NCBI GenBank assembly: GCA_030323885.1
Contig: CM059193.1
Span: 76,329,040-76,393,039, forward strand
Length of the DNA stretch: 64,000 nucleotides
Direction: 5' to 3'
From: Branchipolynoe longqiensis
Lineage: Eukaryota; Annelida; Polychaeta; Phyllodocida; Polynoidae
The notes under the pieces are model-generated. The model was not told where the DNA came from and ran no database searches. It saw only the letters and a list, made by a program, of their open reading frames with translations. Of the stretch, positions 10,114 to 57,631 are shown piece after piece. The position numbers and the translations under genes are program-made. Every line of letters begins with the position of its first letter. Within the stretch, counting starts at the first letter, position 1.

Positions 10114-10362
10114 TTTAGTGGTCTGCACTGACCTCTCAGGCAAGGAGCCGCATAGACAGGTAGGCGTGGGTAGTGTGTTGATATCAGGGAGCCTAGGTGG
10201 TGTAATGGTTAGCACACTGGCCCGGAATGCAAAGAGATGTGGGTTCGAGTCCCATTCTAGGCGCAATATTTCCCATTTTCATCACCCCCATGACACTGGT
10301 GCCATGACCAGGATCCTATACAAGCTACGCGCTGTATAGTTGTAGAACCTACCCTGTGTAAT
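10114..10362 (+). mobile_element. SINE-B (tRNA-derived), full copy
   Basis: The tRNA-like core at about 10192-10263 has a box A GGTGTAATGGTTAGCACACTGG, a box B GGTTCGAGTCC and near-pairing GCCTAG...CTAGGC ends. It is preceded by a leader GTCTGCACTGACCTC and followed by a unique tail ending GAACCTACCCTGTGTAA. The anticodon arm does not pair convincingly and the same unit recurs at 10430, 11703 and 12184, so this is a SINE and not a tRNA gene. Confidence 0.8.
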
Positions 10363-10429: not shown

Positions 10430-10614
10430 GTGTAGTGGTCTGCACTGACCTCTTAGGCAAGGAGCCACATAGACAGGTAGGCGTGGGTAGCGTGTTGATA
10501 TCAGGGAGCCTAGGTGGTGTAATGGTTAGGAGACTGGCCCGGAATGCAAAGAGATGTGGGTTCGAGTCCCGCTCTAGGCGCAATATTTCCCATTTTCATC
10601 ACGCCCATGACACT
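10430..10614 (+). mobile_element. SINE-B, second copy without tail
   Basis: Nearly identical to 10114-10290 over leader and tRNA core. It stops at CGCCCATGACAC. The closeness of the two copies suggests local duplication or recent activity. Confidence 0.8.
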
Positions 10615-19527: not shown

Positions 19528-20225
19528 CCTGGTAGTGCAGCATATATGTGAAATATTTCAACAGAATTGTGGGTTTGATGATAAAAGCAATGTATTTGGC
19601 ACACAGTTAGGACATACCACTGTAAAATATTCTGATAATGATGCATTGGTGGGGGAATGCAAATGTTCTATTTGTGAAACAGGTGTATAGGGCCAGGTGC
19701 ATAGATGTTTATGTACTTGCTGGTGGTGCTTGATTCATTGGTAAATAGACAGTGTGGTGCCAGTAAGATAGTGTGTAAGGGGCACTTGGAGCTCTACCCA
19801 CTACCCCCTCCCCCCTCTGCTAGTCATGGATCACCACACACTCAGCTCAGGGCAGGTGTTGGCCAAGGGAGCCACACTGTGTGGTGGTGGTGGGCAGATC
19901 ACTGTAACCATGGGGACCGGATTCTCATTGGGAGAATGTGGTCAGGTGATATACTATGCTGGATCCATGTACCATATAAATAATAAACTAGAGGGCTTGG
20001 CTCTCTCTTCTTTCACTCTTTATACTCTTCCTTTCTCTTTTTGCCTGTATTGATTTCACTATAGCCTGCCTACACAACCACAGATTCAAGCCGTGGACTT
20101 TACACCACTACTGCACTAGGAATATTTTTGGATGTAGGGACATCACATATTTGTAACAAGGTAACTGCGGTGACCATTTTACAAAATGGCGGCCACAATT
20201 TCCTATTTTCACCCATAAGCTGAAC
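19528..20225 (+). other. Unassigned intronic sequence
   Basis: No repeat or gene recognised. Short open frames have no family resemblance and lie inside the inferred intron. Confidence 0.4.
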
Positions 20226-20487
20226 AATTCGGACAGGAAAGCCGGAGGGCGATGTCAGTTTTGGGAAATGGAGGTTTTATTCACATAACACTGTTAAGCT
20301 GCGAACACACTGGACGCGTATCTCGCGCGTGCGTCAAGCGTCGCGCGTGCGTAAAAAATCAAAACATATGTAATAAAGAGAACCCGAACACACTGGCGCG
20401 TGCATTTGTCGCGCGTGCGTCAGGCGTGCGTCATGGATCGCTTTTGGAGCGATTATTTACGCTTGACGCGTGGTGACGCGTGGCTTT

Positions 20488-20822
20488 TGCCCGACTTTGC
20501 CCGACTTTGCCTGACTTTGCCCGACTTTGCCCGACTTTGCCCGACTTTGCCCGACTTTGCCCGACTTTGCCCGACTTTGCCCGACTTTGCCCGACTTTGC
20601 CCGACTTTGCCCGACTTTGCCCGACTTTGCCCGACTTTGCCCGACTTTGCCCGACTTTGCCCGACTTTGCCCGACTTTGCCCGACTTTGCCCGACTTTGC
20701 CCGACTTTTCCCGTATTTGCCCGACATTTCCCAACTTTGCCCGACTTTTCCCAACTTTGCCCGACTTTGTCCGACTTTGTCCGACTTTGCTCGACTTTGC
20801 CGACTTTGCCCGACTTTGCCTG
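20488..20822. repeat. (CCCGACTTTG)n tandem array, 10-bp period
   Basis: More than 20 near-perfect 10-bp units at the left of the palindrome, degenerating after 20700. No matching array at the right end, so it expanded after the element formed or the other side was lost. Confidence 0.95.
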
Positions 20823-20824
20823 TC

Positions 20825-22553
20825 TTTCCACTTTCCCCTCTTTCATTCCCTCTTCCATTCCCCCCTCTTCCAATCTCCTCTCTTTCATTCCCGCTCTTTC
20901 ATTCCCCCTCTTTCATTCCCCCTCTTTCATTCCCCCTCTTTCATTCCCCCTCTTTCATTCCCTCTCTTTCATTCCCCTCTTTCATTCCCCCTCTTTCATT
21001 CCCCCTCTTTCATTCCCCCTCTTTCATTCCCCTCTTTCATTCCCCCTCTTTCATTCCCCCTCTTTCATCCCCTCTTTCATTCCCTCTTTCATTCCCCCTC
21101 TTTCATTCCCCTCTTTCATTCCCCCTCTTTCATTCCCCCTCTTTCATTCCCCTCTTATTCCCTCTTCCATTCCCCCTCTTCCATTCCCCCTCTTTCATTC
21201 CCCCTCTTCATTTCCCCTCTTCCATTCCCTCTTCCATTCCCTCCTCTTCCATTCCCTCCTCTTTCATTCCCCCTCTTTCATTCCCCCTCTTTCATTCCCC
21301 CTCTTTCATTCCCCCTCTTTCATTCCCCCTCTTTCATTCCCCCTCTTTCATTCCCCCTCTTCCATTCCCTCCTCTTCCATTCCCTCCTCTCCCATGCCCC
21401 CTCTTCCATTCCCCCTCTTTCATTCCCCCTCTTTCATTCCCCCTCTTCCATTCCCCCTCTTCCATTCCCCCTCTTCCATCCCCCCTCTTCCGTCCCTCCT
21501 CTTCCGTTCCTCCTCTTCCGTTCCCCCTCTTTCGTTCCCCCTCTTCCGTCCCCCCTCTTCCGTTCCCCCTCTTCCGTTCCCCTTCTCCTCTTCCGTTCCC
21601 CCTCTTTCGTTCCCCCTCTTCCGTTCCCCCTCTTCCGTTCCCCCTCTTCCGTTCCCCCTCTTCCGTTCCCCCTCTTTCGTTCCCCCTCTTCCGTTCCCTC
21701 TCTTCCATTCCCCCTCTTTCGTTCCCCATCTTTCGTTCTCCCTCTTCCATTCCCCTCTTTCGTTCCCTCTTCCGTTCTCCTCTTCCGTCCCTCCTTTTTG
21801 TCCCTCTCTTCCATTCCCATTCTCCATCTTCGTTCCCCCTCTTCCATTCCCCTCTCCATTCCCCCTCTTCCATTCCCCCTCTTCCGTTCCCCCTCTTCCG
21901 TTCCCCCTCTTCCGTCCCTCCTCTTCCGTTCCCCCCTCTTTCGTTCCCCCTCTTTCGTTCTCCCTCTTCCGATCCCCGTCTTCCGTCCCTCCTCTTACAT
22001 TCCTCCTCTTCCGTCCCTCCTTTTCTGTCCCTCCTCTTCCATTCCCCATCTTCCGTTCCCCCTCTTCCATTCCCCTTCTTCCATCCCCCTCTTCCATTCC
22101 CTCTCTTCCGTTCCCTCTCTTTCGTTCCCCCTCTTTCGTTCCCCCTCTTTCGTTCCCCCTCTTTCGTTCCCCCTCTTTCGTTCCCCCTCTTTCGTTCCCC
22201 CTCTTTCGTTCCCCTCTTTCGTTCCCCCTCTTTGTTCCCCCTCTTTCGTTCCCCCTCTTTCGTTCCCCCTCTTTCGTTCCCCCTCTTTCGTTCCCCCTCT
22301 TTCGTTCCCCTCTTGTGTTCCCCCCTCTTGCGTTCCCCTCTTGCATTCCCCCTGTTGTGTTCCTCCCTGTTGCTTTCCCCCCTCTTGCGTTCCCCCCTCT
22401 TGTGTTCCCCCATCTTCCGTTCCCCGTCTTGCATTCCCCATCTTCCATTCCCCCATCTTCCATTCCCCCATCTTCTGTTCCCCCCTCTTGCTTTCCCCCT
22501 CTTTCATTCCCCCTTCTTGCATTCCCTTCCTCTTGCATTCCACCCCTTTCTTT
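20825..22553. repeat. Polypyrimidine arm, (CATTCCCCCTCTTT)n
   Basis: A 14-bp unit with CATT variants outside and CGTT, CTTCC variants inside, about 1.7 kb with almost no purines on the + strand except the A/G of CATT/CGTT. It is the left arm of a large imperfect hairpin centred near 22555. Confidence 0.95.
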
Positions 22554-24412
22554 CCCCAAGAGGGGGAACGAAAGAGGGGGAACGAAAGAGGGGGAACGAA
22601 CGAGGCGGAACGAAAGAGAGGGAACGGAAGAGAGGGAACGGAAGAGAGGGAACGGAAGAGAGGGGAATGGAAGAGGGGGAATGGGAGAGGGGGAATGGAA
22701 GAGGGGGAATGGAAGAGGGGGAACGGAAGATGGAGAATGGGGAATGGAAGAGGAGGGACAGAAAAGGAGGGACGGAAAAGGAGGAACGGAAGAGGGGGAA
22801 CGAAAGAGGGGCAACGAAAGAGGGGGAACGAAAGAGGGGGAACGAAAGAGGGGGAACGAAAGAGGGGGAACGAAAGAGGGGGGAGAGAAGGGGGGAACGA
22901 GAGAGGGAGACGGAAGAGGGGGAAGGAAGAGGGGGAACGGAAGAGGGGGGAAGAAAGGGGGGGAACGAAAAGGAGGGGGAACGAAAGAGGGGGAACGAAA
23001 GAGGGGGAACGAAAGAGGGGGAACGAAAGAGGGGGAACGAAAGAGGGGGAACGAAAGAGGGGGAACGAAAGAGGGGAACGGAAGGGGAGGGACTGAAAGA
23101 GGGGGAATGAAAGAGGGGGAATGAAAGAGGGGGAATGAAAGAGGGGGAACGAAGAGGGGGAACGAAAGAGGGGGAACGGAAGAGGGGGGGAAAGAGGGGG
23201 GAGGGGGAACGAAGAGGGGGAAGAAGAGGGGGGACGAAAGAGGGGGGACGAAAGAGGGGGGACGAAAGGGGGGGGACGAAAGAGGGGGAACGAAAGAGGG
23301 GGGACGAAAGAGGGGGGACGAAAGAGGGGGGACGGAAGAGGGGGAACGGAAGAGGGGGAACGGAAGAGGGGGAACGGAAGAGGGGGGACGGAAGAGGGGG
23401 AACGAAAGAGGGGGATGAAGAAGAGGGGGAACGGGGAGAGGGGGGAAGGAAAGAGGGAAGAGGGGGAAAAGAGGGGGAACGGAAGAGGGGGAACGGAAGA
23501 GGGGGAACGGAAGAGGGGGGACAGAAGAGGAGGAACGGAAGAGGAGGAACGGAAGAGGATAGAAGAGGGGGAACGGAAGAGGGGGAAGGAAGAGGGGGAA
23601 CGAAAGAGGGGGAATGGAAGAGGGGGAACGAAAGAGGGGGAACGAAAGAGGGGGAACGAAGAGGGGGAAGCGGAAGAGGGGGAACGAAAGAGGGGGAAGG
23701 AAAGAGGAGGGGGAACGGAAGAGGGGGAACGGAAGAGGGGGAATGGAAAGGAGGGGAACGAAAGAGGGGGAAGGAAGAGGGGGAATGGAATGAGGGGGAA
23801 CGGAAGAGGGGGAATGGAAGAGGGGGAACGGGGGGGATGGAAAGGGGGGAGGAAGAGGGGGAACGAAAGAGGGGGAACGAAAGAGGGGGAAACGAAAAGG
23901 AGGGGAACGAAAGAGGGGGAACGAAAGAGGGGTAACGAAAGAGGGGGAACGAAAGAGGGGAACGAAAGAGGGGGAACGAAGAGGGGGAACGAAAGAGGGG
24001 GAACGAAAGAGGGGGAACGAAAGAGGGGGAATGGAAGAGGGGGAACGAAAGAGGGGAATGAAAGAGGGGGAACGAAAGAGGGGGAACGGAAGAGGGGGAA
24101 TGGAAGAGGGGTGAACGGAAGAGGGGGAATGGAAGAGGGGGAATGGGAGAGGGGGAATGGAAGAGAGGGAATGGAAGAGAGGGAATGGAAGAGAGGGAAT
24201 GGAAGAGAGGGAATGGAAGAGAGGGAATGGAAGAGAGGGAATGGAAGAGAGGGAATGGAAGAGAGGGAATGGAAGAGAGGGAATGGAAGAGGGGGAATGG
24301 AAGGGGGGAATGGGAGAGGGGGGAATGGAAGGGGGGGAATGGAAGAAGGGGAATTGAAGAGGGGGAATGGGGGAATGGAAGAGGGAGGAATGGAAGAGGG
24401 GGGAATGTTTTT
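22554..24412. repeat. Polypurine arm, (GAGGGGGAACGAAA)n
   Basis: Complement-related 14-bp unit, AACG variants inside and AATGG variants outside, mirroring the order in the left arm. The 860-900 residue open frames spanning both arms result from a 14-bp period with no stop triplet, not from selection. Confidence 0.95.
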
Positions 24413-25052
24413 TTTTTATGGGAGGTGTGTTCCGGCCTTAGACGCGTGGCAGATGCGTCCAGTGTGTTCGCTATTTACGCGTGAGAACCGCATGACGCAC
24501 GCTTGTACTTGACGCACGCGCGACGCACGCGTCCAGTGTGTTCGCAGCTTTATACAATCTTAGTCAGTTTTAGGGTAGTTCTAGGTCATAGATAGTTAAT
24601 TCCTTCAGGCAACATCCTACATCTCTGCAGAGGGCAGCGCAGGTCACGGGTTTGAAGCCACTGAGGGGGAGCCCCGAGCCGAGCCTATTTAAAAAGAGGG
24701 TGGGTGGGTGTGGTCAAACAACGGTTACAGGTTGGAGGAACCGGGCCGAGTGCCCGGACAAAGGCGTCCCTCTGAGTGTGCGGAGTAGGACCCAGGGGTC
24801 AGCACTGGCTTTGCCACCAAATTAACCACAATTTGAAAATTATGCGCCAATTCGGACAGGAAAGCCGGAGGGTGGTGTCAGTTTTGGGAAATGGAGGTTT
24901 TATTCACATAACACTGTTATACAATCTTAGTCAGTTTTAGGGTAGTTCTAGGTCATAGATAGTTAATTCCTTCAGGCAACCTCCTACATCTCTGCAGAGG
25001 GCAGCGCAGGTCACGGGTTCGAATCCACCGAGGGGGAGCCCCGAGCCGAGCC

Positions 25053-34472: not shown

Positions 34473-35500
34473 TTATTCAAGGAAACAGGTACAGGTAAAC
34501 AATCGGGGTAGTACATAGGAGGCAATGTTCTTGTCCTGGTCAGTCGACCTCGTCCACGTCCGCAGAGGGGCCTGGAAGGACCTGGGAGGAAGTAGGCCCA
34601 GGAGCCGACCCAAAGCATAAGGCCAAGGCTCTCGGGGCACCCGCAGGCACCTGGCGGGGCACATATGCGTGCACTGCATCAGACTCCCAGGTCCCCTGGG
34701 CCATGATGGCGGAAAGGTCCACCCCCTCGAGGCGCAAGCCTGCGCCACACCTCGGCGCAACCCATGCAAGGTGAAGTCGGAGGCACGTCGGCCGCGCCGA
34801 GGGTGGCCCGCAGGAGGTGGGTGACATCCACGGGGTGAGGCGGGTGCTGACGCGGGCGAGGAACGCCGGGGCGTCACCTGGCGCAAGCACGAGGTCCACG
34901 GCGTGCCACCAAGGGCGATCCGGCAAGGGAGGGCACGAAGATCGAGACGGCCTGCGCCGGGGCGCGGATGGTCTTGGATGATGTGATGCGGAGGCGCATG
35001 CCGCCAGGAGCCGGCTGGACGTCATCCCTGCGCAAGGTGAGGCCCCCCCCCCCCCCCATGGGGCGTGTGAGGGGGACAGGAAGCTGAAGAGGGCGATGAT
35101 GGTTGCCGCCCAAGGGGCAACCCCGAGGTGCCCCTGGGCGCGCATGTGCCTGTAGATGAGGGGCAGCATGTCCGGGGTGATGGCGGGGGGGCCGCGAAGA
35201 GCCATTCGCCGCCCCACCTGACCCTAGCCGCGAAGGGGGGCGTCGAAGGGCGCGACGTCTCCCCCGGCCTCCCAGACCCAGGAGGGAACCCCGGAGAAGG
35301 CGTTGGCCACGGAGTCGGGGGGGCAGCAAGCGGTGAAGGTGAGCGATGAATTGGCCGACGTCATATGGGGCGGGGGCCAGGTGGTCGACACACCGCTCGA
35401 CGGCGAACTCCAAGTAGCGCCTGGCATGTCGATCGCGGTTGCGCCAGGTCCTGGGCGCGAGGGCGGCACGGTGGAGCGTTATCAAGTGCTCGTGCACACG
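34473..35500 (-). pseudogene. Ngaro-like tyrosine recombinase
   Basis: N-terminal core-binding part: LAPRTWRNRDRHARRYLEFA and YDVGQFIAHLHRLLPP. Then, in shifted frames, HLGVAPWAATIIALFSF, LRRDDVQPAPGGMRLRI with SSKTIRAPAQAVSIFVP, the HGLRRG (H-x-x-R) box near 34750 and HAYV with the catalytic tyrosine near 34660. The copy at 62853-63609 is the open-frame counterpart for the N-terminal two thirds. Frameshifts, one at a poly-C (35043-35057), separate the boxes, so no active enzyme. Confidence 0.8.
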
Positions 35501-35524
35501 CGGGCCGGGCCGTATTCTGCAATG

Positions 35525-36330
35525 TCAAAGGTCATGGGTGAAGATATCTGGCGAATGGCGCACACTCAACCGACAAAGACCCCTAATACGGCACTCTTTA
35601 CGGTCTATATCAAGGGCGACTGGGGAGTAGTGCGAGCGGCTGAGGGCATCCGCGGGCACCAGGTCGACGCCGGGCTTGTGCTGGACGGTGATCTCGAAGG
35701 ACCCAAGGGCCGCGAGCAGCCATATCTCCTGGGCGCACGCGCCAAGGGTTGTGTCGACGGTGCGTCCAAACTCGAGGGCGCTGGCAGAGGCCGCATTGTC
35801 AGTATTTATGATGAGCTCGTACCCCCCCGGAGCATCGGGCCCAAGGGTGCGGACTGTGAGGACCAGGTTCACGGCCTCGAGTTTGTGAATGGAGGGGTAC
35901 GCCACCATCATCTCCTGGTCGTAAGCCTCGGAGAAGCAGGCACTGGTCGAGAAGGCACGGCCGCCGGTCAGGCAGGAGTCGCATTCGACGACCCACCGCG
36001 GGCGCACGATCAGGGGAAGGAGTCAGACGCCGTTGCCGGCCGCCGCGAAGTCACGGAACCACCTGAGCTCCGGGTCGATGTCCGCGGCGTCCGTGGCGGG
36101 GGCCACTCGGAGGCTCCAGAGGATCCGAGCCATGAACTTGTGCGCCGATGTTATGCATGAGCTCACGTGTGCGAGGCGGCCGACGAGCCTCTGGAGGGCT
36201 TTCCTGGTCAAGGTGGGGTGGACGAGCCAGCGCTCGCACTCCCCCGATGACCTCTTCCATCTTCTGGTCGGGGATGCGGAGGACCATGGCCTCTGTATCG
36301 AAGTCAATGCCCAGCCGCTGGAGGGCAGCA
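35525..36330 (-). pseudogene. Ngaro-like RNase H region
   Basis: From 36007 the frame has VECDSCLTGG (first catalytic Asp), AYDQEMMVAYPSIHKLEAVN, LIINTDNAASASAL (Asp box) and VDLVPADALSR (ADxLSR box). The upstream connection (36331-36023) is in other frames: QRLVGRLAHVSSC, HKFMARIL. The typical DIRS-order RNase H motifs are all present but split. Confidence 0.75.
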
Positions 36331-36900
36331 CTTGTCGGGGGCGAGCGCGAGCCCGAGGGAGGCGCAGATCTCCCGGAGGGCGTCGAACGCTCGCATCGCG
36401 TCAAGGAAGGATGCCTCGGACCCGATGAAGTCGTCCACATAGACGGTCATGTAGAATCCGCGGCGCCCCATGATCCAGGCCACTGCGGCGGTGACTCTTA
36501 CGCAGGCCGCGCCCGAGGTCCTGCATCTGAAGGGCAGGGCTATGTCGAGGTAGGTACGGCAGTCGACCGTGATGCCGAACAGCGGGGTGGAGAGGGGGTC
36601 AGCCCGAAGCTGCCGGTAAGCGCTGGAGACGTCGGCCGACCAGCAGAACGCGCCCCCTTCCCTCCACGACGCTGCGTCGGCCCAGGTCGGCCGTGGACGG
36701 AAGTCTGTAGGTGTGTGGGCGCCCACGGTATTCCCTTCTTGGGATGCCGGCGTTCACGCTGCGGCCCGGGGGGGAAGGACAAGTCGACTATGACTCGGCG
36801 CTTCCCCGGGGTGGACTTGGGCCACGTCATGATGGGGCTACACTGAGCCCAGGGGGTGAACAACGGCGCCGAGGAGCGGCAGAGCTCTTCTTCCGCATAG
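36304..36900 (-). pseudogene. Ngaro-like reverse transcriptase
   Basis: Starts with SPIMTWPKSTPGKRRVIVDLS (about 36840-36780), changes frame, then WSADVSSAYRQLRADPLSTP and the catalytic YVDDF (36427-36441) followed by SEASFLDAMRAFDALREICA. These are RT motifs of the DIRS order: SxAYRxL and YVDD. At least one frameshift near 36730. Confidence 0.8.
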
Positions 36901-50543: not shown

Positions 50544-51665
50544 TATCTTATTGACGAAAAACGGCAGATGCAAAATATTTGTCAGTTTTAGATGCAAAGA
50601 CAGGATATTGGCAGATAGAGTTAGATGCTTTTGGCATCAAAACAGCCGGTGACATTTTTATTCAGGAAATGCACCGTGTCATGGGCGATATACCCGGTAT
50701 CGGGATAGTCACGGACGATATTTTGGTATATGGGTCAACGGTTGAGGAGCACAACGAGCGGCTCCGAGATGTGTTGGACCGAGCTATGTCGGTTAATCTG
50801 AAATTAAACGATGCTAAGTCTTTGCTATGCAAAACTACAGTGAAATATGTAGGTCATCAACTTACCCAGCAGGGTGTGAAGCCTGATCCAGACAGAATAC
50901 AAGCAATAGTTGACATGCCAAAGCCGCGTGACAAACAAGGCGTCCAAAGGTTCCTGGGCATGGTTGGATATGTACACAAGTTCATACCCAACATGTCCGA
51001 GATAGCTAAACCACTACGCACGCTCCTGGCTAAGGACGTGGCGTGGCACTGGCAAGCCAAACAGCAGGGCGCATTCGATAAGTTGAAGGAGAAGTTAAGA
51101 ACTGCTCCTGTGTTATCATATTATAATGTTAAGAAACCTATTGTGATTCAGGTAGATGCTTGTCAGTCAGGTTTAGGTGCTGTGTTGATGCAAGATGACA
51201 AACCGATCGCACTCGCATCTCGTGCGCTTAACTTAGCGCAGTGTGGTTATGCCACTATCGAAAAAGAAATGCTTGCCATATGTTTCGGATGCCAGAGGTT
51301 TCATAAGTATATCTTTGGCAAAGAAGTTCAAATTCAAACGGATCACAAGCCGTTAGTGGCGATAATGCAGAAACCGATAAATAAACTTTCGGCTAAGATG
51401 CAGAGAATGCGAATGCGATTGCAAAATTACAATATTCAGTTATGTCATGTGAAGGGTTCTTTGATGTTTTTTGCAGACACGTTGTCCAGGGCGCATGGCA
51501 TCAAAGTAGGTCATGATAGCCTGTTCGATGACACGTTCTGCATTGCCGCAGTGGACATGCAGTCGTCGAGTTTGTTGAGTAAGATTGTAAATGAGTATGA
51601 GAAGGATGTATCCATGTCCATGTTGATCTCACACATTGAAGATGGGTGGGACACTACACGCATAC
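50544..51665 (+). pseudogene. Gypsy A RT (partial) and RNase H
   Basis: VLDAKTGYWQIELD passes directly into FGIKTAGDIFIQEMHRV: about 20 residues between the SVLDA and FGI boxes are deleted. VTDDILVYG is the catalytic box (near 50707-50733). GVQRFLGMVGYVHKFIPNMS follows, then RNase H: VIQVDACQSGLGAVL (Asp), YATIEKEMLAICFGCQRF (Glu), QTDHKPLVAIM (Asp) and FADTLSRA. Open from 50579 to the nested element at 51666. The loss in RT and the missing N-terminal half make it inactive. Confidence 0.85.
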
Positions 51666-52936
51666 CCCAGATAGCACACAGCCGTCGGCCCGATGGTGGC
51701 CTCTCCGTCGGGCCAACAGTGGAGATCGTCGTCGGGCCGACATTGTTTTGTCCAACCTCCCGCCGTCGAGCGGACGGCCGACGGTGGCAGCCGCCGTCGG
51801 GCCGACGGTGGCAGCCGCCGTCGGGCCTACAGCGGCAGCCGCCGTCGAGCTGACGGTGGGAGGTTAGACAAAACAACGTCGGCCCGACGGCGGCTGCCGC
51901 CGTAGGCCCGACACAATATATTTGTTAGCGTTCTTGTAATCTATTAATTTTGGATAAAACTAATATTTTGCACCTGTACGTATTGACACTATAGTGACAG
52001 TGTCTTCTCGGAAAAAAACCAAGATGGCGGTCCATCGTCAACATTCCATACCGGGTAGTTCAAATCGTATTAACACGAATAATTCCATTAATACATCGTA
52101 ATAAATTACAAAACTTTCACAAAATAATCTAAACATAATGATAAACAAACCTGTTAAATAATTCCTTAAAATTCCTCCGATTTTTGGAGTTATTTGTAGA
52201 AAAAGAACGCTGCTCAACGATCACACGTGTTCCAGTGGCGATTCGAAGTAAACAAACCGTATCGGATAATTCAAATTGTATTAACACGAATAATTCCATT
52301 AATACTTCGTAATAAATTACTAAACTTTTACAAAATAATCTAAACATATTAATAAACAAACCTGTTAAATAATTCCTTAAAATTCCTGGTATTTCTGGAG
52401 TTCTTGGTAGAAAAAGAACACTGCTCAACGATTGCACATGTTCCGCTGGCGACTCGAGCCGGAATCCAAATTTAAAGAACTGCGCAAGCGCGGCCCACCA
52501 CCGTCGGCTCGACGGTGGCTCGACGGTGGATCAAATGTGGAAAATGAATGCAAACCTGCGGCGGCCCACCACCGTCGGCTCGATGGTGGCTCGAAGGTGG
52601 ATCAAAGGTGGAAAATGAATGCAAACCTGTGGCGGCCCACCACCGTCGGCCCGACGGTGGCTCGACGGTGGACCAAATGTGGAAAATGAATGCAAACCAG
52701 CGGCGGCCCACCACCATCGGCCCGACGGTGGCTCAAATCAGGAAAGGGATTGAAAATCAATGTTGGACCACCACCGTCGGCCCGACGGTAGCCCGATGGT
52801 GGCTAAAATCAGGAAAGGGATTGAAAATCAACCCCGGACCACCACCGTTGGCCCGACGGTGGCCCGATGGTGGAAAGTCGGTGGTGACGGTGCGACCAAT
52901 AGCCGACGTCGGCCCGACGGCTGTGTGCTATCTGGG
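51666..52936. mobile_element. TIR element of CGTCGGCCCGACGG syllables inside pol
   Basis: Inverted termini CCCAGATAGCACACAGCCGTCGG and its complement. The arms (51680-51915, 52490-52930) are built from the palindromic syllable CCGTCGGCCCGACGGTGG. The middle has a 200-bp direct duplication (52063-52255 and 52267-52442, shared AACACGAATAATTCCATTAATAC). Flanked by AC on both sides (51664-51665, 52937-52938), a possible 2-bp duplication. Removing it with one AC leaves the pol frame continuous. No transposase. Confidence 0.8.
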
Positions 52937-54092
52937 ACAGACACCGCCATGTCTGAGACAGTACATCCCATACAAACACGACTTAGCGATAGAAAACAAT
53001 CTTGTAATGAACGGCAATCGGGTGGTGGTTCCTCCGGGTCTTCATGGTGAAATGATTGAGGCGTTACATGAGACACACCTAGTTGTGACAAAGTCCAAGC
53101 AGTTGGCGCAGGACTGTATGTTTTGGCCGAATATGAATAAGCAATTTGAAGATAAGGTCAGTCGGTGTGACACTTGCCAAAACAACCGAAAAAGTTTGCA
53201 TAACGAGCCCTTGATAAATCACCCGATCGCCTGCCAACCGTATGAAAAAGTTGGTGCCGACTTGTTTGAGTTAGGTCATAAGAATTACCTGATAACTGTA
53301 GATTACTACCCCAAGTATCCAGAGGTGACGCTGTTGGGCAATACGTCGTCTGTCACCGTTATTGAAGCGTTGAAGGATAATTTTGCAAGGCACGGTATTC
53401 CTAGTCAGGTCATTTCGGACAACGATCCACAGTTTAAGAGCCATGAGTATAGGGAGTTTGCGCTACACTATGGGTTTAAGGCCGTGTATTCCAGTCCACA
53501 GTATCCTCATAGCAATGGGCAGGTGGAACGGTTTGTGCAGACAGTCAAGGACATGTTAAAGAAGTGCGAGAAAACTGGGTCTGATTTTCAGTTAGCTTTG
53601 CTGAACTATCGTAATACTCCGTTGCCCATCTTAAATGCATCTCCGGCGCAGCTGCTAATGAGCTGGAGGTTGAGGGGTAGGTTGCCTATGGCGAAGGAAA
53701 TGTTGGTGCCCGAAACACAGAATCCGAAGAGAAGCCAGACAGCCAAACGGCAGCGAAGTCAGAAAGTGTTTCATGACCGGAAGTGTGGTAAGCCGCACAA
53801 GCCTATGAAAGTGGCAGATAATGTAAAGTACAAGAATCATGCCGGGGAATGGAAGAAAGGGGTTATTTTGGGACGGACTGGTGTTTCTGGGAGAGAATAT
53901 CAAATTTTGAACGAGTCGGGTAATATGTTGTATCGTAACCGGGTGCAGATTATCAGGGCGCCTGTGGGGGGGCGACCCGAGCTGGTCGGGCAGACACAAA
54001 CTGGGTCAGCGTCAGTGCTGAATGTAAACAGTGCGGCTAATCTAAGTAGGTCAGGTCGGCTGATAAGGCCGGCGAGCAGGTTAGACCTGTAG
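52937..54092 (+). pseudogene. Gypsy A integrase
   Basis: HHCC finger: LHETHLVVTKSKQLAQDC with CDTC. Catalytic core: VGADLFELGHKNYLITVDYY (Asp), VISDNDPQFKS (Asp), SNGQVERFVQTVKDML (Glu). C-terminal part with KVADNVKYKNHAGEWKKGV and YRNRVQIIR. The frame is open from the nested element to the stop at 54090-54092, and all DDE residues are present. It joins RNase H upstream only if the nested element is ignored. Confidence 0.85.
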
Positions 54093-54357
54093 GAGGTCAG
54101 TGTCGATTGAATGTATACACGTATAACATGTGCATGTAGGATTAAGTTTATTTCAGAGGTTTTCGTTAGTATATGATATCTGATGGACATTTTGGCATGT
54201 CAGGCATTACGGCCGGACAGTAAGGACGTAAGTGCATTGAGCACTCAGACATTGCAAGGACTTGTGTTGAAGTTAAGTACGCATATATTTTGTTGTATAG
54301 TGTGTGTTGTTCATGGTTATTTTGATACATTTCATGTTTCAGAAATACTTTGAGGGG
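54093..54357 (+). other. 3' non-coding part of Gypsy A
   Basis: Between the integrase stop and the Gypsy B insertion. It ends ...TTTGAGGGG, the start of the purine tract that resumes after 57913 as AGGGGGGGA. Confidence 0.6.
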
Positions 54358-54484
54358 TGTCTGGATACTTAGTGTAGTGCCACCTGAATGTTTACATCCT
54401 GGAGACCTAATGGAACACTTCTACTGAGTTGCTTGTTGGAGACACATATCAATACATGGTGCCAGGAGTAAAAAGCTGATAATA

Positions 54485-55384
54485 ATGGCAGATCACAAGC
54501 TACAACCACCAGGATATCTTAAGCTGAAAGAGGAGAATGTGGCAGATCATTGGGAAAAGTGGAGGAAGCAACTCAACTGGTATTTTGTGGCAGCAGGGGT
54601 GCCAGAGGATGCAGATAAGAGGAGGGTTGCAATGCTACTCACCTATGGTGGCCCAGATGCGATGGAAGTCTTTGAAACATTTGAATATCAAGAGGGTGAG
54701 TCAGAGGATGATTTCAAATGTGTAATACAAAAGTTTGATGAATTGTGTCGACCACAAAAGAATATCACATATGAAAGATACAAGTTCTGGAGTAGGCGCC
54801 AAGAAGCTGGTGAGACATTGGATGCATTTGTCACAAACTTGCGCACATTGGCAGCCACCTGTGAGCTGGGAAACCTCCGTGACGAACTAGTACGGGATAT
54901 GTTAGTTCTGGGCATCTCAGATGCACGTATGCGTGAGAAGATGTTGAGGGATAGGAATCTAACACTGAGGTCAGCCATAGAAACCTGTCGAGTGGCGGCA
55001 AGAGCGCGATCACAAGCGAAGATCCTGAACCCTGGGGAAGCACGGGAGACTGTAGCTGCCATTAGTCGCCGGCCGAACCAGTTAGGTGGAGATCAAGTGG
55101 GAAGTGGACATGGCCGTCATATTGAGTCACGAAATCATAACAAGCTGGAGACCCATGGAAATGATTACGACTGCCGTTGGTGTGGTCGTAGGCATGGACC
55201 TAGGAACTGCCCAGCATGGAAGTTTAGGTGTGGGAAGTGTTCGATAAAAGGTCACTATACAAAGATGTGTACGGCGAAGGTGAGAGTGGTTGAAGCATTT
55301 GACGACGAGCATGCTGACAGCTCGGGCTATGAACCAGAACTATTTGTGGGTATGGTTGAAACGGTGAAAGTTGCACCGGACTAA
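54485..55384 (+). CDS. Gypsy B gag (299 aa, intact)
   Basis: Starts MADHKLQPPGYLKLKEENVA 28 bases after the LTR. The middle has the retrotransposon gag pattern (ENVADHWEKWRKQLNWYF; YERYKFWSRRQEAGETLDAF; LRDELVRDMLVLGI). The end carries two zinc knuckles, CRWCGRRHGPRNC and CGKCSIKGHYTKMC, for nucleic-acid binding. It stops at TAA 55382. The next frame-compatible sequence begins the protease (KLDIGA at about 55478, active-site Asp kept but Thr replaced by Ile), which then hits a stop at the deletion junction. The gag itself looks undamaged. Confidence 0.85.
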   Translation: MADHKLQPPGYLKLKEENVADHWEKWRKQLNWYFVAAGVPEDADKRRVAMLLTYGGPDAMEVFETFEYQEGESEDDFKCVIQKFDELCRPQKNITYERYKFWSRRQEAGETLDAFVTNLRTLAATCELGNLRDELVRDMLVLGISDARMREKMLRDRNLTLRSAIETCRVAARARSQAKILNPGEARETVAAISRRPNQLGGDQVGSGHGRHIESRNHNKLETHGNDYDCRWCGRRHGPRNCPAWKFRCGKCSIKGHYTKMCTAKVRVVEAFDDEHADSSGYEPELFVGMVETVKVAPD

Positions 55385-56073
55385 ACATCTGTAGTTGGCA
55401 TTCACCATATACAGTTGGGGAAAGACTCACGGTGGGTACATGCAGTTGATATAAATGGAGAGTTAGTCCCTATGAAGCTGGATATAGGAGCATGATCACA
55501 GGCTGACGGAGGTGAAGGCCAGAATTCAGAAATATGGCCTGCTCATGAACTGGAAGAAATGCGAGCTGAAGAAAGATGAGGTGGTATTCATTGGGGAGCA
55601 CCTGAGTGGAGATGGGGTACGTCCCTCAAGTGACCGAATCGCAGCAATACTAGAGATGGAAAGGCCTAAGAATAAGGAGGGCATACAGAGGGCTCTAGGT
55701 TCAATTAACTTTGTGGGGAAATTTGTTCCCAATCTCGCAAGTCGATGCAAGAACCTCAGGGAGTTACTGGGGAAGAGTGTAGTGTGGCAGTGGCAGGCAG
55801 CACACGAAAAGGAGTGGCAGATCAAGTACATTCTGTCCACCATGCCTGTACTAGCATTCTTCGATCCAGTATTAGAGACCAAAGTATCGACAGATGCATC
55901 AAAGGATGGGCTGGGGGCTGTGCTCCTCCAGCTGCATGATAAGGAATGGAAGCATGTGGCATATGGGGCCAGAGGGTTGAGTGAGTGTGAGAAAAGATAT
56001 GCGCAGATTGAGAAGGAGTGCCTGGGCATCGCATACGGGTGTGAGAAGTTCCACATTACATCTTTGGGCTAAA
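55385..56073 (+). pseudogene. Gypsy B protease remnant joined to RT end and RNase H
   Basis: After KLDIGA and a TGA (55493-55495) the sequence jumps to the RT thumb: RLTEVKARIQKYGLLMNWKK, IQRALGSINFVGKFVPNLAS. The RT fingers and catalytic palm are deleted. RNase H follows: VSTDASKDGLGAVL (Asp) and YAQIEKECLGIAYGCEKF (Glu). A frameshift near 56060, in the segment that should read FHxYIFG, separates it from the next frame. Confidence 0.85.
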
Positions 56074-56077
56074 GAGT

Positions 56078-57631
56078 GTGATTCTAGAGACAGATCACAA
56101 ACCCCTCATTGCACTTAGCCAGAAGGCACTCATTGACATGACACCGCGACTCCAAAGGCTGATGTTGAAGCTGCAGAGATACAGCTACATCATGGAGTGG
56201 ACACCTGGCAGGTTACTGTACCTTGCGGACACGCTGTCGAGAGCAGTTGGCAGTGTAGAGATAAAAAGTGAGATCTGTGAAGAAATAGAGGCACATGTCC
56301 TAGCAGTGTATGAGGGCCTTCCTGCTACGAATCAACAGCTGCAGAAGATTGCAGAGGAGACAGCAAAAGATGAGGTGCTCCTCGCTGTTCTGAGATGCAT
56401 CACAGAGGGGTGGAGAGCAGGTGAGTGCATGGCATATGCACACTATGAAGACAAACTATATGTGGTAAAGGGGGTCATTCTGAAAGGTAACCGAATGGTC
56501 ATACCCAGGAGCATGAGGAAGGAGCTACTGGAAAGACTCCATGTTGGGCATCTGGGAATAGAAAAGCAGAAGCGTATGGCTCGAGACTGCTTGTACTGGC
56601 CCAACATAAACAAGGACATTGAAGGGGCTGTGCAAGAGTGTGGAGTGTGTCAGCGGTACCGCCCTGCGCAACCCAAGGAGACCTACCAGCACCTGGAGAA
56701 GCATGGCGCTCGTGGGCCATGGGACAAGGTGGGGCTGGACCTGTTTCACTGGGGTGGAAAGGACTATGTGATCTGTGTGGATTACTGGTCCAACTATCCA
56801 GAGATCGCACTCTTGACACACACAAGCTCGGACCAAGTGATAATACATGTCAAGAGCATGTTTGCGAGGCATGGGATACCACGAGTAGTCATGAGTGACA
56901 ATGGGCCTCAGTTTGCATCGAGTGCATTTAGACGATTCGCCCAGGAGTACGAGTTTGAGCATCTGACGAGCAGTCCAGGATACCCCCAATCAAATGGGCA
57001 GGCTGAGCGTGCTGTGGGAATTATTAAGGGTCTTCTCAACAGAACCTGGGAGGATGGAGGAGATATCTACCTCGCCCTTCTTCAGTACTGGAAGGCTCCC
57101 AGAGAGATGGGTAAGTCCCCGGCTGAATTGCTGATGGGCAGGAAGCTTAGGAGCCAGCTACCGGGTATGACAATGGGGAAGTCCGAGGACAAGAGAGAGT
57201 GTGGAGATAGTAAACGAGAGGAGATGAGGAGCAAACAAAAGGAATGATATGATCAAACAGCGAAAGACTTGCCACCACTGGGCAGACATGAGGTGGTGCG
57301 AGTGAGAGAGAAGCATTGGGACAGAAGAGCAGTAGTGCTAGAGGAGGTGAGACCAAGGTCATACCGAGTCAGAACGGAGGATGTTGGGGAGTACATCCGA
57401 AACAGGAGGCATCTCCTTCAAGTCAAAGAACCCTACCTACCTGAGTATGAGCATCAGGAGGAGGACATAGGAACAGGAGGAATTGGAGAAGAGCCAGAAG
57501 AACCACCCACTCCAAGTGCAGCAAAGGTGGCTGCCCCTCCAGGAGACCCAGGGAACACAGTGAGGGGTGAAACCCTTCCTCTGCGCCGATCGACCAGAGT
57601 ATCCCGACCAGTGATCAGGATGGATCTATAA
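56078..57631 (+). pseudogene. Gypsy B RNase H end and integrase
   Basis: LETDHKPLIALSQ (last RNase H Asp) and LADTLSRAVGS; HHCC finger HVGHLGIEKQKRMARDC with CGVCQRYRP; DDE core VGLDLFHWGGKDYVICVDYW, VMSDNGPQFAS, SNGQAERAVGIIKGLL; then LLMGRKLRSQLPG. A single in-frame TGA at 57245-57247 interrupts before YDQTAKDLPPLGRHEVV and EVRPRSYRVRTEDVGEYIRNR (GPY/F-like C-terminal module) ending at 57629-57631. Long and well kept otherwise. Confidence 0.85.

Follow-up and report, generated by a model that had tools for sequence, protein, structure and literature searches.

A dispersed family of foldback-like elements with PIF/Harbinger-type ends and a probable coding parent in Branchipolynoe longqiensis

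The 64,000-nucleotide stretch of Branchipolynoe longqiensis DNA analyzed here (GenBank assembly GCA_030323885.1, contig CM059193.1, positions 76,329,040 to 76,393,039 of the forward strand; hereafter, the window) carries at 20297-24549 an insertion of a terminal inverted repeat (TIR) transposon, flanked on both sides by TTA and with a related empty site about 300 bp away. Most of its interior is a palindrome of tandem repeats. The element is a member of a dispersed family and not a lone oddity. It is very probably a nonautonomous PIF/Harbinger transposon whose movement depends in trans on another, two-gene Harbinger of the same genome, which encodes a DDE_Tnp_4 transposase and a MADF-type DNA-binding protein.

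The terminus (AGCTGCGAACACACTGGACGCGT) forms a perfect inverted match across 23 bp (left TIR, 20297-20319, plus strand; right TIR, 24527-24549, minus strand), with 92.9% identity across the first 42 bp; the original prediction for this DNA had recognized perfect inverted termini but placed their length at 20 bp. Each end contains the motif GAACACACTGG twice, at the terminus and again internally, a doubling absent from the original prediction, with the second copy lying 83 bp inward on the left (CGAACACACTGG, 20385-20396, plus strand) and 74 bp inward on the right (24459-24470, minus strand). An 18-base core of the terminus had 3 matches in the window and 0 in 100 dinucleotide shuffles, the third match being the right-side internal copy, one mismatch off. 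The two copies of the TTA target site duplication (TSD) occupy 20294-20296 and 24550-24552 (unstranded). A host repeat is interrupted after 20225-20296 and resumes at 24550-24685, and its sister copy at 24848-25052 (all plus strand) aligns to it without the insertion. The copies are about 97% identical, and at the junction they differ by exactly the element and one 3-bp TTA, the left TSD copy being missing once from the empty sister site. The TTA on either side and the uninterrupted sister repeat had been described beforehand and are confirmed, and the proposed movement as a TIR element is supported by the empty site, the TSD, and paired termini elsewhere in the genome. The host repeat is about 205 bp long and present in two direct copies; the intact copy at 24848-25052 bears a GGTTCGAATCC motif that we take to resemble a tRNA B box, and the repeat is possibly a short interspersed nuclear element.

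Reading inward, the element consists of a 189-bp left end (L-end), a 10-bp tandem array, a pyrimidine arm, a purine arm, and a 142-bp right end (R-end). The array (TTTGCCCGAC, 33.6 copies, 20486-20820, plus strand) was absent from the original prediction, which had correctly described arms of 14-bp units, about 1.7 kb of pyrimidine facing about 1.85 kb of purine. The pyrimidine arm (20833-22558, plus strand; consensus CCCCTCTTTCATTC, about 123 copies) measures 1,726 bp and is 91% C+T, the purine arm (22559-24407, minus strand; consensus AAGAGGGGGAACGG, about 130 copies) measures 1,849 bp and is 93% A+G, and both have a 14-bp period. They meet in a spacer-free palindrome center (22543-22574, plus strand) with 2 mismatches to the genome-wide center pattern described below. 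Computational folding of the DNA as a single strand predicts that 89% of the bases in the pyrimidine arm pair with the purine arm and that 39 of 42 bases at the termini are paired. With long inverted arms that hold tandem repeats, the element is foldback-like in structure, as had been proposed.

Genome-wide searches covered 1.85 Gb in 1,914 contigs. The 22-base terminus gave 1,105 matches with at most 2 mismatches (557 forward, 548 reverse), while the reversed pattern, used as a control, gave 0 matches genome-wide; an L-end pattern including TWA gave 322 matches with at most 1 mismatch (153 and 169). Terminus positions were taken from the first 100 matches listed, all of them exact and lying on C1 or in part of C2; from these we selected by eye 19 loci whose termini converge at a spacing of a few kilobases, and we added one single-ended locus. 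The search for terminus pairs that had been suggested as a check thus found them, and pyrimidine-then-purine arms lie between the termini in 18 of the 19 examined pairs, those 18 spanning 1,451 to 5,038 bp. The exception, L022, has a GTTGG-type minisatellite in place of arms. A foldback with clean transposon ends had been called unusual; the structure stands but the uniqueness does not, given this family and a precedent in Medicago truncatula discussed below. The 18-base core also matched a single locus in Viral_contigs, which we take as chance: it has only 18- and 17-letter copies of the motif, and the rest of the ends was not found there. The core string had no match in the papers searched for it.

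Some neighbors of these loci deserve mention in their own right. At L022 (G000:C1:185823410-185828330), three same-ended relatives with GTTGG-type minisatellite interiors stand in a row, neighbors being parted by a single TTA and the first two lying at a 1,162-bp period; the row may reflect repeated insertion into the element's own target duplication or some other tandem amplification. L012 adjoins another L-end across one TTA. In L018, a further inverted-repeat insert with termini like GGTGTGGCAGTAAATCGCAAACCC (by eye) occupies 280-1570, between the R-end and the arm.

The original prediction had also asked whether an autonomous Harbinger shares the termini, and we found a coding element that does. 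This candidate parent, a 5,514-bp PIF/Harbinger element (G000:C8:76167603-76173116), sits some 156 kb upstream of the window. TAA flanks it on either side, and its ends are 94% and 89% identical to those of the window element. It emerged from a genome family search with DDE_Tnp_4 (PF13359) in which 150 of 5,154 candidates were scored and 30 loci examined; an R-end with the double motif was present in 2 of the 30 (L044 and L047), and L044, when extended, gave the 5,514-bp element. The L-end module of the window element (20297-20479, plus strand) aligns over 183 bp at 94.0% identity with the left end of the parent, and the R-end module (24440-24549, minus strand) matches its right end at 98 of 110 bp (89%). 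On the left, the similarity extends to within 7 bp of the 10-bp array; on the right, it ends about 32 bp short of the purine arm. Domain matches in the parent are DDE_Tnp_4 (PF13359, E 3.6e-38), MADF (PF10545, E 1.5e-6), and BESS (PF02944, E 2.7e-10). The MADF match comprises the first 37 of 84 positions, in a frame that begins inside the L-end; there is a frame with the BESS motif, the DDE_Tnp_4 frame is on the other strand, and a further 143-amino-acid frame upstream had no Pfam match. Second genes with a Myb/SANT/MADF-type DNA-binding domain are described for PIF/Harbinger elements in sections of PMC9710019. The 3-bp TTA/TAA TSD, the DDE_Tnp_4 domain, the MADF-type second gene, and the ends common to both elements are all features of PIF/Harbinger, and the shared ends suggest that the parent may cross-mobilize the window family.

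A genome-wide protein search, in which 126 out of 6,170 candidates were scored, found three close copies of the parent transposase, on C8 (100%), on C18 (99%, frame open), and on C4 (98%, interrupted by one in-frame stop); the best match after these was at 53%. The C18 copy (L061 and L047, G000:C18:20949200-20955476) was rejected as a clean copy of the element, 368 bp of its left end being inverted; there is a 6-bp overlap at the joint of the inverted piece. The transposase's top match in the protein database was an unnamed protein (92%), the best-scoring named match was from Callosobruchus analis (43%), and the highest-identity named match among the 120 listed was from Haliotis asinina (59%); these relatives point to an animal host. 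The best match in the parent to the 14-bp unit, CCGCCCCTTTCTGCCCCCCCCCTTTC, was equalled in 5 of 100 first-order shuffles, and those to the 10-bp unit and to a second 14-bp variant in 32 and 56 of 100, making CCGCCCCTTTCTGCCCCCCCCCTTTC a lead at most to the seed of the 14-bp array. We note two further observations around these ends. Some 400 bp separate an L-end at G000:C7:62083739 from a DDE_Tnp_4 match other than the parent (C7:62082854-62083345). In the window, a 913-codon open frame (20355-23096) runs from the L-end across the 10-bp array and arms in the reading frame of the parent's MADF exon; it is probably meaningless because the parent's ATG is altered in the window and low-purine sequence is without stops.

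The centers of the palindromes bear on how the family arose. A 32-bp center pattern gave 151 genome matches with at most 3 mismatches (73 forward, 78 reverse), at least 100 of which were exact, and its reversed control gave 0 genome matches. Because the center and its junction are conserved across copies, we read the family as deriving from one ancestral palindrome that would have been inverted once and then copied by transposition. Of 51 exact centers on C1 through C7 (as far as 72.3 Mb), 30 have an exact L-end on the proper side no more than 6 kb away, and these comprise 28 in standard orientation, 1 inverted, and 1 with L-ends on both sides. Among 28 arm-bearing elements, the center is in standard orientation relative to the ends in 22, inverted in 5, and unclear in 1 (L018). 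The 22 are made up of 14 of the first 20 elements and all 8 elements retrieved by an exact center, a retrieval that favors the standard form; 4 of those 8 show only one end within the stretch. Inversion was recognized by pattern in L012, L015, and L025 and by reading of the junction in L017 and L024, and since L012, L017, and L024 look like a single lineage, there would have been fewer inversion events than five. L014 has L-ends on both sides.

We hypothesize that an ancestral element lost the coding interior between its end modules and gained the 10-bp array together with one head-to-head 14-bp array, whose inversion would have made the palindrome once; transposition would then have dispersed that single palindrome. 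The parent's proteins may bind both end modules, each with its two copies of GAACACACTGG, and cut-and-paste movement followed by gap repair from the sister or homologue would produce more copies. Each arm most likely changed in length later and largely independently, by slippage and unequal exchange during postexcision gap repair. Occasional exchange between the arms, or template choice within them, could have yielded a flipped center or two L-ends. For Medicago elements of the same design, sections of PMC2213677 favor abortive gap repair. A rather unlikely alternative is that a palindromic satellite already existed in the genome and was later captured between transposon ends. A center identical at 100 or more places would agree with capture, as would the lack of an exact terminus within about 5 kb of 3 of 13 exact centers on C1 and 1 of 7 on C2 (first 115.7 Mb), but an exact terminus is nearby for the other 10 of 13 and 6 of 7, in a list that held exact termini only, and the Medicago authors infer repeat evolution within the subfamily in the parts of PMC2213677 compared here.

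Several observations weigh against dispersal of one palindrome by a parent Harbinger followed by independent change in the arms. On its right side, the parent has a terminal repeat that differs at 4 of 22 places. No exact L-end was in the list within 6 kb of 21 of the 51 exact centers, and 66 of 100 listed exact L-ends had no exact center within 6 kb (34 had one); this pairing used exact matches, diverged partners being outside the lists. The target sites largely favor that reading: in the first loci, 45 of 46 typed ends have TWA, with 11 untypable end rows set aside, 10 of them being the internal second motif. TA was considered as the true duplication, several flanks reading TAA..TTA, but the 45 TWA ends speak against it. 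Matching duplications are present in 16 of the 24 elements with both ends typed, and the 8 without a matching TWA duplication (L010, L013, L016, L018, L021, L027, L028, and L068) are more than simple insertion predicts. Read inward, both ends show TAA in five of the eight and TTA in one; of the remaining two, one has GTA and the other ATG. Chimeric Galileo copies likewise lack matching duplications (PMC3573991), so the arms may have mediated ectopic exchange here too. Finally, the lengths of an element's two arms are correlated (Spearman 0.59, p 0.001, n=27; 0.43, p 0.04, n=23 after removal of four elements with both arms below 500 bp), which we read as a possible effect of common descent within long-armed and short-armed lineages.

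That correlation also speaks for joint growth of the arms, through hairpin replication or gene conversion between arms, by which each element would keep itself palindromic. Consistent with this possibility, the five inverted centers and the element with two L-ends suggest exchange of sequence between arms, both window arms share an outer/inner gradient, and own arms align better than unit-shuffled ones in 20 elements (z 2.0 to 12.5). We set the last result aside as a demonstration of collinear arms and prefer a test across elements, because shuffling of single units also destroys shared higher-order blocks. In that test, own-arm local-alignment similarity was 0.477 versus 0.484 for arms across elements (permutation p 0.73; 27 of 28 elements, L029 being dropped because its arm runs off the stretch), and since an element's two arms resemble each other no more than they resemble the arms of other elements, joint growth after dispersal is not supported. 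Earlier versions agreed (0.496 own versus 0.507 cross in 20 elements; p 0.82 in 19). Arm limits for the 27 elements were set automatically and overrun hand-set limits by as much as about 155 bp. Across different elements, arms from the same side are more alike (0.535 for left with left, 0.558 for right with right), and the measure has power because related same-side arms reach a similarity of 0.96. In 22 of 27 elements the arm on the L side exceeds the other in length, and the arms of L025 are tenfold unequal (269 versus 2,732 bp). The window element itself has a coarse gradient only, with ATT units outside and GTT units inside: the true unit order scored 1130, circular shifts (n=11) averaged 1108 and reached 1134 at most, and aligned identity was 88.3% in true order versus 89.9% with units shuffled. 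The proposed mirror-like order of variants is therefore not borne out beyond that gradient, the claim that the arms grew together is not supported, and we regard joint growth as improbable.

The facing purine/pyrimidine arms could assist movement instead of being mere filler. By folding on one another they might bring the termini close at any length, allowing elements of 1.5 to 5 kb to jump like small ones, an idea that we consider doubtful and put forward with little confidence. PIF/Pong excision in yeast drops with element size from 430 to 5,166 bp (R2 0.97) in the part of PMC10288884 consulted. Were the idea true, array growth would cost little because folded arms bring the termini together whatever their length, and the contrast between at least 151 palindromic copies and only three close copies of the parent transposase would be explained.

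Assignment to a foldback lineage of Mutator or P (Galileo) is highly improbable: long inverted arms of tandem repeats and an all-array interior with no space for a transposase gene would suit it, but the 3-bp TWA TSD differs from the 7 to 10 bp of Galileo and Tetris, and ends common to a PIF/Harbinger DDE_Tnp_4 element already contradict that superfamily. Arrays of this kind are hard to assemble, but mis-assembly of the palindrome is very unlikely indeed because the same center recurs at 151 or more places, with arms in 18 of 19 examined pairs at separate places.

Inverted arms of short tandem units, as here, occur in the sea urchin TU and Drosophila FB elements, which have longer duplications and are not known to be Harbinger. 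The clear precedent is MtPH-A6-4 of Medicago truncatula, so that a PIF/Harbinger element filled by opposed tandem repeats with inversions is already known. As described in sections of PMC2213677, MtPH-A6-4 shares with the window family PIF/Harbinger ends, TTA/TAA sites, facing tandem arrays, variable copy number, and internal inversions, and empty sites are reported for the elements of that study; it differs in its 60-bp units, present in 2 to 35 copies in 18 of 23 members, and in its plant host, and the sections compared mention no conserved spacer-free center or purine/pyrimidine split. Galileo, of the P superfamily in Drosophila, likewise has long inverted repeats with internal tandem repeats, sides that change independently, and chimeric copies without matching duplications, but 7-bp duplications, a P-type transposase, and repeats of about 210 bp (parts of PMC3573991). 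Tetris of Drosophila virilis is a nonautonomous foldback with tandem repeats in inverted arms that, in the portion of PMC4079207 compared, has 8- to 10-bp duplications, 220-bp repeats, no autonomous copy found, and a proposed Mutator affiliation. PMC2872659, judged from part of its text, proved unrelated. What looks new are the 14-bp purine/pyrimidine arms, the conserved spacer-free center, the copy number, the probable parent, and a probable animal host; no animal Harbinger family of such design was among the matches listed, judged by titles and the starts of abstracts, which does not establish its absence from print.

Palindromes of such size are expected to be unstable, and copies of this one nevertheless occupy 150 or more places in the genome. 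The family provides many insertions that go back to a single ancestor, along with a probable parent and, in the case of the window copy, an empty site. Because it offers many insertions of shared ancestry, length change, arm exchange, and flipping of inverted tandem arrays become measurable. It also allows the effect of inverted arms on transposition to be tested, and it connects a cut-and-paste transposon with satellite-like arrays and with palindromes.

Elsewhere in the window, two tRNA matches exceed the Rfam gathering score (10191-10263 and 10508-10580; 47.9 and 30.7 bits), and long frames at 50555-57631 and 34473-36753 resemble, by eye, retrotransposon polyproteins.

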